Assembly (NCBI RefSeq): GCF_026191915.1
Contig: NZ_JAIMBY010000002.1
Span: forward strand, 124,001-188,000
Length of the DNA: 64,000 nucleotides
Direction of reading: 5' to 3'
From: Acidiphilium sp. PA
GTDB taxonomy: Bacteria > Pseudomonadota > Alphaproteobacteria > Acetobacterales > Acetobacteraceae
This document shows, piece after piece, positions 19,380 through 63,466 of this stretch. Under the pieces are notes generated by a model that saw only the letters and a list, made by a program, of their open reading frames with translations, did no database searches and was not told where the DNA came from. Position 1 is the first letter of the stretch. Every line of letters starts with the position of its first letter. Both the position numbers and the translations under genes were made by a program.

Positions 19380-19499
19380 CTTCTTTTTTGTAAAAAAGAA
19401 GCAAAAAACTTTCTTTAATCTGGGTAACGGGCGTTTTCACCGGCACGGACCCAAATTAACAAAGTTTTTTTTGCTTCTTTTTTGTTTACAAAAAAGAAG
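19380..19499. repeat. Palindromic repeat element, copy A (single core unit)
   Basis: A 120-bp element with inverted ends. The left end has a perfect 10-bp hairpin (19380-19389 with 19392-19401, CTTCTTTTTT/AAAAAAGAAG). The right end has a perfect 12-bp hairpin (19474-19485 with 19488-19499). The inner sides of both ends also pair over ~20 bp (AAAAAAGAAGCAAAAAACTTT against AAAGTTTTTTTTGCTTCTT). Further in, 19415-19425 and 19449-19459 pair at 10 of 11 positions. The core contains one copy of the unit that is repeated in copy B. It lies between convergent gene ends, so it may act as a two-way terminator. Confidence 0.85.
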
Positions 19500-19556
19500 A
19501 ACTTCCCTTGCTTTTTTACCTATTTCGTTATGATATCGTAATGAATTAAGCGTGCA

Positions 19557-20276
19557 TCAGCCCCGCGGGCCTTTGCGCCACATTTTTTTCGCATCGAAGG
19601 AGGGCACGAAGGGGTGGTGCCAGGGCGGGACGGGCGGTGGGGGTGGGCCGAGGATGTCGCGGAGTTGTTCGGGGGTGAAGTCGATGCTGCCGTCGGGGTT
19701 GACTTTGTATTGGGCCATGAAGTCGGGCTGGCGCTCGGGGCGAGGGCGTTTGGGGCGGGGTTTTGGTTCGCCTGTGGGTTCGCACCGGGGTTTTCTTGGG
19801 CGTTTGATGATCTGGGGGGGACGCAGGCCGAGCATGGTGTGGAGGGGGCGGAGGATGCGGCCGAGGCTGGGGTGGGTGGCCAGCAGCTCCAGCACGATGG
19901 GGTCTTCCATGAAGAGCTGGAGATCGGCGCGGGCGGCGGCACCGGCGACGACGGTGGCGGGGCCGTTGGGCAGCAGGCGGATGAGCCAGGCGAAGCCGCG
20001 GGGGAGTGTGAGGGGTGGTTTGGGTTTGGCGGTGGCGGGTTCGCGCTCGACCGGTTTGGGAGCGCGGGTGCGGATGCGCGGGGATTGGGGTGGGCGGGAT
20101 GCGATGCGGGCGAAGCGGGCGATCTGGCGGGCGAGGTAGTTCCAGATCAGGACGATGAGCGGGCCGTGGATTTTGAGGCGGTAGCCGTTGTCGGCGACCG
20201 AGCGCTGCAGGGCACGGAAGATCACCGTGAAGCGCTCGGTCGGGTCGGCAGGCATGAACGGCGCGTTTGCGATCAT
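19557..20276 (-). CDS. Hypothetical protein bracketed by repeat elements
   Basis: I cannot name this 239-residue protein with certainty. It has an N-terminal part with an amphipathic/hydrophobic stretch (HGPLIVLIWNYLARQIARFAR), a Pro/Lys/Arg-rich linker, a second hydrophobic segment around GPATVVAGAAARADLQLFME, another basic Pro-rich linker and an acidic-polar end (YKVNPDGSIDFTPEQLRDIL). The strong codon bias and long open frame support it as real. No Shine-Dalgarno is evident before ATG 20276; Met8 (20255) is an alternative. It is the only gene between repeat copies A and B. It could be a lineage-specific Acetobacteraceae family member, which I cannot confirm. Confidence 0.6.
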   Translation of the reverse strand: MIANAPFMPADPTERFTVIFRALQRSVADNGYRLKIHGPLIVLIWNYLARQIARFARIASRPPQSPRIRTRAPKPVEREPATAKPKPPLTLPRGFAWLIRLLPNGPATVVAGAAARADLQLFMEDPIVLELLATHPSLGRILRPLHTMLGLRPPQIIKRPRKPRCEPTGEPKPRPKRPRPERQPDFMAQYKVNPDGSIDFTPEQLRDILGPPPPPVPPWHHPFVPSFDAKKMWRKGPRG

Positions 20277-20341
20277 GGGAAGGGTTAGACCATGATCGGT
20301 GGGGGGTGAGAAAGGAAAATGTTAGACGAAGAAAGGAAGCG

Positions 20342-21121
20342 CTTCTTTTTTGTAAAAAAGAAGCAAAAAACTTTTTGAGTCTGGGGCACGGGCGGTTTCA
20401 CCGGCATGGGCACGGTGTAACAAGGTTTCATCTGAGAGTTGGGCGGTTTCACCGGCACGGGCACGGTGGAACAAGGTTTCATCTGGGACTTGGGCGGTTT
20501 CACCGGCATGGGTACGGTGTAACAAGGTCTTATCTGGGACTTGGGCGGTTTCGCCGGCGCGGGCACGGACTAACAAGGTTTCATCTGGGACTTGGGTGGT
20601 TTCACCAGCATGGGCACGGTGTAACAAGGTCTTATCTGGGACTTGGGCGGTTTCACCGGCATGGGCACGGTGGAAAAAGGTTTTATCTGGGACTTGGGCG
20701 GTTTCACCGGCTCGGGCCCGGCGTAACAATGTTTAATCTGGGGCTTGGGCGGTTTCATCGGCATGGGCCCGGCCTAACAAGGTTTCATCTGGGGCTTGGG
20801 CGGTTTCACCGGCATGACCCGGCCTAACAAGGTTTTATCTGGGACTTGGGCGGTTTCACCGGCCTGGGCACGGCGTAACAAGATTTTATCTGGGACTTGG
20901 GCGGTTTCACCGGCTCGGGCCCGGCCTAACAAGGTTTCATCTGGGGCTGGGCGGTTTCACCGGTATGGGCCCGGCGTAACAAGGTTTTATCTGGGACTTG
21001 GGCGATTTCACCGGCACGGGCCCGGTGTAACAAGATTTTATCTGGGACTTGGGCGGTTTCACCGGCATGGGCCCAGAGTAACAAAGTTTTTTTTGCTTCT
21101 TTTTTGTTCACAAAAAAGAAG
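20342..21121. repeat. Palindromic repeat element, copy B (expanded)
   Basis: This copy has the same ends as copy A: left hairpin 20342-20351/20354-20363 and right hairpin 21096-21106/21111-21121, with CAAAAAACTTTTT and CAAAGTTTTTTTTG on their inner sides. The element is 780 bp instead of 120 because its core is repeated. The difference of 660 bp equals 13 extra units (eleven of 51 and two of 50 bp, within one base). It fills the space between the hypothetical gene's 5' end and the panE 3' end. Confidence 0.88.
20381..21085. repeat. 51-bp minisatellite, 14 tandem units
   Basis: The unit is roughly CTGGGACTTGGGCGGTTTC then ACCGGCATGGGCACGGTGTA then ACAAGGTTTTAT. Unit starts are 20381, 20432, 20483, 20534, 20585, 20636, 20687, 20738, 20789, 20839, 20890, 20941, 20991 and 21042 (last one partial). 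Units 9 and 12 are 50 bp, each lacking one base. Each unit contains a small hairpin, CGGT-TTC-ACCG. Units 1-6 mostly carry GGCACGGTGTAAC while units 7-13 mostly carry GCCCGGCCTAAC, suggesting block-wise duplication. Long open frames of 17-residue repeats on both strands arise only because 51 is a multiple of three. Confidence 0.95.
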
Positions 21122-21159: not shown

Positions 21160-22101
21160 CTAGGGCGTTGTCGCCGTCGTCCGTGCCTGGGCTTTCTCGT
21201 AACTTTTCAGATGGAGATAGGCGATTTTGAGGACGGGGGCGGTTTGGTCGGGCGGGCAGCGGGTCAGCATGGTGCCGAGGATATGATCGGCTTCGATGCG
21301 GCCTGATCGCTCGATGTCGCGCAGCATCGAGGCGGCGAGGGGTGATCCGGCGGCGGTGAGGGCGGTGCGGGTTCGTTGCCATGCCGGTTCGCGGAGTGGG
21401 TAGCCCTGGCTGGCTGCGATCGCGGCGCATTCGTGGGCCAGGTCGAGCGCGATGGGACCGGCGCCGGCGGCCACGATATCGCCGATCGTTGCGCGCATCA
21501 GGCAGGTGATACCGGCGAGCGATGTGATGAAGGCGAATTTCTCCCACATGTCCTGCATGATCGTTTCGCTACGCTGTGTCGCAAACCGGGCGGCGGCGAA
21601 TGTGGTGTCGATTGTGCCGACGCGCGCCGCCTGGCTGGGGTCGCGGGCTCCGAAGGTGAGCGATTCGATCTCGTTCAGATGGATGATGCGTCCTTCGGGG
21701 TCGAGCACTGTCGAGATCACGCATTGACCGCCGAGGACGTGTGCGGCGCCGAAGTGCCGGTCGAGCTCGTCGAGGTGGCTGATGCCGTTCAGCAGGGGCA
21801 GGATCAGCGTATCCGATCCGACTGCCGGGGCGAAATCGGCGATGGCATCGGCGAGATCGTAGGCTTTGCAGCTGAGCAGGATGAGATCGAACCCGGCGGT
21901 GAGGGATGTTGCTGTCACCAGTTTGGGGGACGGGTCGTGGACATCGCCGCGCGCACTTTTGATCACCAGCCCGGTCTGCCGGAGGGCTGCTGCCCGGGCT
22001 GGGCGCACCAGAAATGTCACGTCGGCGCCGGCCTCGATCAACCGGCCGCCGAAATAGCCGCCGATGCTGCCGGCGCCGACGACCAGGATTTTCATGGCCA
22101 T
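21160..22101 (-). CDS. Ketopantoate reductase family protein (PanE/ApbA)
   Basis: This 313-residue protein is full length for the family. The N-terminal NAD(P) motif is GAGSIGGYFG. A conserved Lys is in LSCKAYDL, and the C-terminal helical domain has the catalytic Lys in MWEKFAF plus a late S-S/D pattern. PanE reduces 2-dehydropantoate to pantoate with NADPH, but many paralogues use other 2-keto acids. It follows the thioesterase gene by 3 nt, so the two form an operon. ATG 22101 has GGAG 9 nt upstream; an in-frame ATG two codons later is less well placed. Confidence 0.82.
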   Translation of the reverse strand: MAMKILVVGAGSIGGYFGGRLIEAGADVTFLVRPARAAALRQTGLVIKSARGDVHDPSPKLVTATSLTAGFDLILLSCKAYDLADAIADFAPAVGSDTLILPLLNGISHLDELDRHFGAAHVLGGQCVISTVLDPEGRIIHLNEIESLTFGARDPSQAARVGTIDTTFAAARFATQRSETIMQDMWEKFAFITSLAGITCLMRATIGDIVAAGAGPIALDLAHECAAIAASQGYPLREPAWQRTRTALTAAGSPLAASMLRDIERSGRIEADHILGTMLTRCPPDQTAPVLKIAYLHLKSYEKAQARTTATTP

Positions 22102-63346: not shown

Positions 63347-63466
63347 CTTCTTTTTTGCGAACAAAAAAGAAGCAAAAAAATACTTTGTTAGTTTGGGCCC
63401 GTGTCGCTTCAAACGCCCATGCCCCAGAGTCAAAAAGTTTTTTGCTTCTTTTTTACAAAAAAGAAG
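63347..63466. repeat. Palindromic repeat element, copy C (single core unit)
   Basis: A third copy, again exactly 120 bp, in reverse orientation relative to A and B. Left hairpin 63347-63357/63362-63372 (CTTCTTTTTTG/CAAAAAAGAAG) and right hairpin 63445-63454/63457-63466 (CTTCTTTTTT/AAAAAAGAAG). Inner sides carry CAAAAAAATACTTTGTTAG and CAAAAAGTTTTTTGC. Reading the minus strand gives a start almost identical to copy B (CTTTTTGACTCTGGGGCATG, compare CTTTTTGAGTCTGGGGCACG). It lies just after the murJ 3' end. Confidence 0.85.

Follow-up and report, generated by a model that had tools for sequence, protein, structure and literature searches.

Introduction

The mycobacterial MIRU-VNTR are intergenic repeats of about 50 bp, dispersed through the genome, that occur in tandem at certain sites and as single units elsewhere. 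A comparable architecture has been described in Porphyromonas gingivalis, whose BrickBuilt element is a MITE carrying a 23-nt minisatellite, present in 19 copies in one strain and built of 1 to 22.8 units, according to those parts of the description on which we draw (PMC4596501). By analogy, and within those parts, BrickBuilt is a published precedent for a minisatellite within a MITE-like element (PMC4596501), so that the word "unusual," chosen in a first-pass annotation for a palindromic element of Acidiphilium whose centre has become a tandem repeat, was too strong.

This element was studied in a 64,000-nucleotide stretch of DNA (hereafter the window) from the genome of Acidiphilium sp. PA (G000), a 4.54-Mb assembly in 86 contigs. 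Judged by the gene at 21160-22101, which we take to be panE-like, the closest relative found is Acidiphilium rubrum ATCC 35905. The window holds two single-unit copies of the element (A and C) and one enlarged copy (B). The reading that we prefer, at a probability of roughly 0.57, is that copy B belongs, as an enlarged form, to a non-coding palindromic family of about 120 bp in the A. rubrum group, that its core grew by slippage or unequal recombination, that enlarged forms spread in company with an ORF cassette, and that solo members have a role at gene ends. The element adds a second bacterial example of a tandem repeat expanding within a dispersed palindrome; because a single genome holds its single, double, fourfold and 14-fold forms, early steps in the birth of a minisatellite are readable from sequence.

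Anatomy of the Enlarged Element

Copy B is a complete element with the same ends as copies A and C (Table 1), and between them the core of about 51 bp is repeated in tandem, as the first-pass annotation had it. Tandem Repeats Finder places the array at 20390-21090, with a period of 51, 13.8 copies, 87% matches and a score of 989, and anchor-based splitting gives 14 units. Eleven of the 13 spacings between these units are 51 bp and two are 50 bp, in line with the two 50-bp units seen earlier; the spacings total 661 bp, which fits the proposal that the 660 bp of extra length represent 13 added units.

Table 1. Positions of the elements and of the neighbouring ORF cassette in the window.
Feature	Position	Strand	Basis
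Whole of copy B (780 bp), a complete element of 14 core units	20342..21121	+	
L-end hairpin of copy B, CTTCTTTTTTG-T-AAAAAAGAAG; the A6-CTTT inner arm comes next	20342..20363	+	Co-variation of L hairpins over 115 single-unit elements
Tandem array of copy B, 14 units, each 51 bp long except for two of 50 bp; the final unit runs into the T-tract	20381..21092	+	
Copy B R-end hairpin CTTCTTTTTTG-TTCA-CAAAAAAGAAG, preceded by the AAAG-T8 inner arm	21096..21121	+	
Copy A (120 bp), with one core unit, directly next to the cassette ORF on its 3' side	19380..19499	+	
Copy C, single-unit solo element (120 bp)	63347..63466	-	
Cassette ORF (239 aa) between copies A and B; one of 18 full-length copies in the genome	19557..20276	-	
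5' leader of the cassette ORF, from its start codon to the L end of copy B; shared motif TTTCTCACCCCCC	20277..20341	-	
Imperfect palindrome immediately past the stop codon of the cassette ORF	19513..19556	-	

The idea that the two halves of the array carry different unit subtypes holds roughly: units 1-6 carry CACGG or TACGG and units 7-14 CCCGG or CCCAG, with the exception of unit 10, whose CACGG breaks the pattern. Permutation of the 12 inner units favours a split after unit 6 (P = 0.005), and the best-split version of the test, with at least three units on each side, gives P = 0.013. The block duplications proposed to explain these halves are not shown, because adjacent units are no more alike than they would be in random order (permutation test, P = 0.38).

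A coding role for the array was considered, 51 being a multiple of three, and was rejected, the frames being broken because two units have each lost one base. Open frames run through the array at 20267-20827 (plus strand) and 20322-20729 (minus strand), for which the 51-bp unit is the reason, and annotation may turn frames across it into spurious proteins made of 17-residue repeats.

Could the array be an artefact of assembly? The genome is a draft of 86 contigs, and contig ends fall within the ORF cassette, but the 14 units all differ, so that ordinary reads can order them; moreover, copy B sits 144 kb inside a 549-kb contig, and a second, related array stands on contig C20. An artefact is highly improbable.

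Distribution of the Element Family

Elements were gathered by means of an exact R-end pattern (the A. rubrum loci L267 and L268 otherwise), and copies with altered R ends are therefore missing from all counts. G000 holds 57 occurrences of this pattern and A. rubrum 77; it is rare in genome G011 (seven) and in G012 and G009 (four each), and is absent in its exact form from G007, G005, G010, G003 and G001. Once five R ends with no L partner and a single false join had been set aside in G000 (eight and one in A. rubrum), and a truncated, cassette-linked copy of about one and a half units on contig C4 (L187) had been left out, 51 complete elements were counted in G000: 45 have one unit (117-120 bp), four have two (174 bp), the one on C20 has four (272 bp) and copy B has 14. 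All 70 complete elements of A. rubrum read as single-unit, at 114-120 bp. Element-type end hairpins of either type are commoner in G000 than R ends, numbering 168, and the left 30-37 bp of the element also match other genera of the family (G013, G016, G030-G032 and G035); these hairpins may represent a general gene-end hairpin.

Common L and R ends thus enclose 14 units in copy B and four in C20, a tandem repeat between the conserved ends of a dispersed element. When 60 genomes were searched for exact matches to the unit sequence CTGGGRCTTGGGCGGTTTCA, eight were found in copy B and two in C20, with none in the 59 other genomes; the check suggested at the outset, whether the 51-bp unit occurs outside the elements, accordingly showed no scattering of this exact sequence. 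The motif CTGGG[AG]CTTGGG is found 11 times in copy B, twice in C20 and in none of 115 single-unit copies. From these sequence likenesses, we read copy B and C20 as belonging to a single array lineage and differing in unit number, 14 against four. Whole-array searches scored the best 40 of 251 candidates in one case and, for A. rubrum, the best 8 of 319, and because so few were scored, diverged arrays may be present there as well.

In the two-, four- and 14-unit copies listed, units are joined by AACAAAG or AACAAGG with its T-tract, meeting a T-tract followed by AAT or AT and then CTGGG. The junctions carry point changes, and one of the three in C20 deviates. Because the multi-unit copies share this junction, we infer that the core was first duplicated when the T-tract of the right inner arm (AACAAAG-TTTT) either slipped against that of the left inner arm (CTTTnTTTAAT-CTGGG) during replication or recombined unequally with it. 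From two units on, unequal recombination could alter the unit number.

Matched sites in the two genomes allow a comparison between species. Among the flank matches listed, the element measures 174 bp in G000 and 119 bp in A. rubrum at both L178/L194 and L183/L227; the same lengths are found at L131/L241, which is matched less surely, its flanks being 74-82% identical. The expectation that unit number would vary between fixed ends is therefore upheld, both among sites of G000 (1, 2, 4 and 14 units) and, as two units against one, at these three sites, one of them weakly matched. Of 37 solo elements, 30 have a matched A. rubrum element by at least one flank, always single-unit, and the other seven have no match among the complete A. 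rubrum elements fetched. The two-unit copy on contig C56 (L184, flank 87%) and the C20 array (L165, flank 98%) match the two sides of a single A. rubrum locus (L228), where one single-unit element stands without the ORF, the corresponding flanks in G000 being close to contig ends; this suggests, but does not show, that cassettes inserted at a resident element. The unit number of copy B is not directly comparable with A. rubrum, because on the panE side no hairpin of this kind is present in the A. rubrum locus, 12.9 kb long, that carries the panE-like gene, and on the other side copy A is followed by a contig end within 30 bp (L248).

Across 122 elements, the left flank is purine-rich and the right flank pyrimidine-rich; no fixed direct repeat of the kind expected of a target-site duplication was seen in the base counts of these 122 elements or in 60 flanks viewed. 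The array-unit and exact R-end patterns are absent from the phage, plasmid and viral-contig collections, and in one plasmid record of A. multivorum a stretch of 63 bp matches the left part of the element. Eight matches to Rfam families (plant microRNA, plastid and snoRNA), all on the hairpin of copy A and all under the gathering scores, were taken as chance. No paper describing this element was found in the literature on Acidiphilium repeats, as judged by the titles and abstract openings of part of the results.

Age and Variability of the Array

How old, then, is the array? None of the units of copy B are identical: they differ from one another at 3 to 11 of 51 positions, with a mean of 7.1 (14%). 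For want of identical units, slippage is not directly visible in the array. At 26 matched solo sites of G000 and A. rubrum, hand-picked from 30 by omitting L150, L158, L173 and L174, which have a missing or short flank, the core diverges by 12.9% and the arms by 2.1%, the latter figure carrying a bias at the R end, whose exact pattern had served to find most of the sites. The ends of the element are thus more conserved than its core. Because the divergence of the units is close to that of the core between species, the array looks about as old as the split of the two species, which argues against fast turnover at present.

This bears directly on the view that copy B is an actively hypervariable minisatellite (VNTR), its unit number changing between strains by slippage or recombination. 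That homologous arrays of 14 and four units exist in one genome, and that unit number differs from A. rubrum at the three matched sites, is what such a locus would produce. Recent hypervariability, as the first-pass annotation had supposed it, nonetheless finds no support: even the closest units differ at 3 of 51 positions, as in an old rather than a fast array, and neighbours are no closer than random order would make them. We regard it as unlikely.

Folding and Possible Role of the Element

The single-unit element is about 120 bp long, has terminal inverted repeats and is non-coding; copy A folds into one long hairpin, with z-scores of -9.5 and -9.9 on the two strands. Over 115 single-unit copies, the L hairpin shows 11 compensatory cells, where shuffles average 0.7 and reach 4 at most, and at the matched site L149/L258 a change from G-C to A-T has occurred on both sides of the hairpin. 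For the inner arm, the core and the outer stem, co-variation in the same 115 copies does not rise above that of shuffles; the core hairpin and the outer stem were accordingly rejected as conserved helices, and a function of the core hairpin is not supported because of this result.

With gene orientations taken from a crude codon-usage caller, which in three of the 17 plus-plus pairs here called an ORF overlapping the element, the L end of solo elements faces the upstream gene's 3' end in 17 of the 20 gene pairs that share a direction in G000, and in 23 of 31 such pairs in A. rubrum, for the most part at the same sites. In both species taken together, facing gene 3' ends are found at a median of 19.5 bp from solo elements, vs. 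84 bp for 5' ends. A simple scan for terminator-like sites gave no excess (5, against a shuffle mean of 3.6). Most likely, judging from position and sequence, the solo element is a polar gene-end element, either a transcription terminator or a 3' stabiliser of mRNA, with the core as an insertion-tolerant loop or spacer.

Has the array, standing between the panE-like gene and the cassette ORF, itself been selected, whether as a protein-binding array, a spacer, an array of promoters or a multi-hairpin insulator? Copy B does lie between the 3' end of that gene and the start of the ORF, both being co-directional on the minus strand, and the 51-bp spacing has been kept with just two 1-bp losses over 14 units. 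Two minus-strand promoter-like matches (shuffle mean 0.7 for the scanned region) fall in two separate units of the array, at 20883-20910 and 21035-21062, and the whole of copy B, ends included, folds better than 20 shuffles (z -4.0 as RNA, z -7.0 as DNA). Against this, the units have drifted as much as unconstrained cores, a typed 51-nt unit folds little better than its shuffles (z -1.8), and the genome yielded no more than two such arrays. Selection of the array is quite unlikely on this balance, and the array of copy B probably has no function of its own.

The Cassette ORF Beside the Elements

The ORF between copies A and B, which the first-pass annotation passed over, is present in many copies; it has no NCBIfam or PHROG match and a sub-threshold Pfam match only. 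The full-length copies in G000, the window's included, are 93-100% identical in amino acids to the window copy, and further matches in this genome are either fragments at contig ends or remote relatives at 35-52%. Remote relatives also occur elsewhere: G001, G007, G009 and G011 each give 18 to 21 matches, and the remaining Acidiphilium genomes give fewer. A single-sequence model of the protein reached a mean pLDDT of 52.7, too poor for a fold search. An origin in phages or plasmids was rejected: the phage and plasmid collections gave no match to the ORF, among viral contigs none was confirmed, and neither the exact R-end nor the array-unit pattern was found there.

An R end of the element stands at the 3' side of 11 of the 18 full-length copies (cut short in L273 and L275) and an L-type hairpin at the 5' side of five, the window copy having both. 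Counted the other way, 14 of the 51 complete elements are cassette-linked, one of them (L161) to a remote relative. All six multi-unit elements are linked in this manner, against eight of the 45 single-unit ones (P = 0.00017); the link is weak, at P = 0.07, if the four 174-bp copies are treated as one lineage and copy B with C20 as another. Contigs C1, C3, C20, C27, C45 and C68 end within the cassette, and for this reason further copies of cassette and array may be hidden by the assembly.

In a tree of 18 copies from G000 and eight from A. rubrum, which covers the last ~90 codons (306 columns), the copies fall into one clade per species, each with 100/100 support, and are 95% alike within a species and 84% alike between the two. 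The clades separate by species although L137/L232 and L183/L227 sit at matched sites, these being the only two of six matched pairs with rows from both species. Such a pattern is, as far as the sequences can tell, one of concerted evolution or repeated replacement within each species. Given that the ORF copies are homogenised in each genome, the enlarged forms of the element would have spread among sites jointly with the ORF beside them, through recombination or gene conversion.

In copy B, then, the enlargement is real, apparently old, restricted to a lineage and tied to the repeated ORF. It is this ORF cassette, and not the array, that forms the strongest open point: an uncharacterised repeated gene beside the elements, concerted within each species, may constitute a mobile system lacking any known transposase. 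Going one step further, the element could be one half of an unrecognised mobile system, in which the 240-aa ORF with its own post-stop palindrome would recombine into resident palindromic elements, leaving an element-ORF-element arrangement such as A-ORF-B, overwrite earlier copies at those sites, homogenise itself in each genome and drive the tandem growth of the element core. We put this forward tentatively, as a speculation with the odds against it.

RAYT Transposases and the Element

A known mover was also considered, the element being in that case a REP/REPIN-like repeat mobilised by the REP-associated tyrosine transposase (RAYT) of these genomes, and the arrays its clusters. The Pfam Y1_Tnp model finds nothing in G000, and the NCBIfam RAYT model gives one full and two partial matches there. 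L-type hairpins lie at most 350 bp from the RAYT match at 10 of 22 RAYT loci (L329, L330, L331, L335, L336, L337, L339, L342, L343 and L345), vs. 43 of 1258 window positions (3.4%); the 22 loci are not independent, several being matched sites, and the 350-bp windows assume flanks of 1500 bp, making them rough at contig ends. At L187 (C4:57329-57451), a C-terminal RAYT fragment (NF047646, E 2e-13) is fused to the truncated element, which breaks off in its second core unit, and RAYT matches are present in four genomes with R-end elements (G000, G006, G011 and G012).

These points have their counterparts. G009 has R ends without a RAYT match and G005 a RAYT match without R ends, while the hairpins, which beside RAYT genes are mostly single and on one side, may be near them merely because both sit at gene ends. 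GTAG-type repeats are the usual partner of RAYT. Repeats of this type (GTAGGGTGGGGTGC...GCACCCCACC) adjoin the RAYT genes in the seven loci, out of 22, that were viewed (L328, L331, L335, L336, L342 and L345 among them) and are perhaps their cognate REPs; of these seven, only L329 shows a whole element-like stretch. At this last locus (G011, about 1250-1400), beside the RAYT gene, the arms of the L hairpin have changed yet remain complementary (CTA...TAG), and the stretch adjoins a leader resembling that of the cassette ORF. Mobilisation of the element by RAYT is hardly likely, and the enrichment of hairpins near RAYT loci finds no place in the preferred reading of copy B as an enlarged member of a gene-end family.

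Comparison with Known Systems

Like MITEs and REP/REPIN elements, the Acidiphilium element is short, dispersed, palindromic and intergenic, with many copies per genome; what sets it apart from them is that 30 of 37 solo sites are matched in A. rubrum by at least one flank. With the MIRU-VNTR it shares dispersed intergenic repeats of about 50 bp that are tandem or single depending on the site, but MIRUs are not known to have the long palindromic ends that it possesses.

The likeness to BrickBuilt, one of architecture and drawn from the parts of the published description used here, is closer: both are dispersed, intergenic and non-coding, with inverted-repeat ends, a tandem-repeat centre, imperfect units and a unit number that depends on the site (PMC4596501). 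The unit is 23 nt in BrickBuilt, which has a separate leader and tail, and 51 bp in Acidiphilium. Unlike BrickBuilt as presented in those parts (PMC4596501), the Acidiphilium element is a near-perfect palindrome, 45 of its 51 copies have a single unit, and its enlarged copies stand beside a multicopy ORF. It is this ORF cassette, evolving in concert within each species, that is the novel part with respect to the published precedent.
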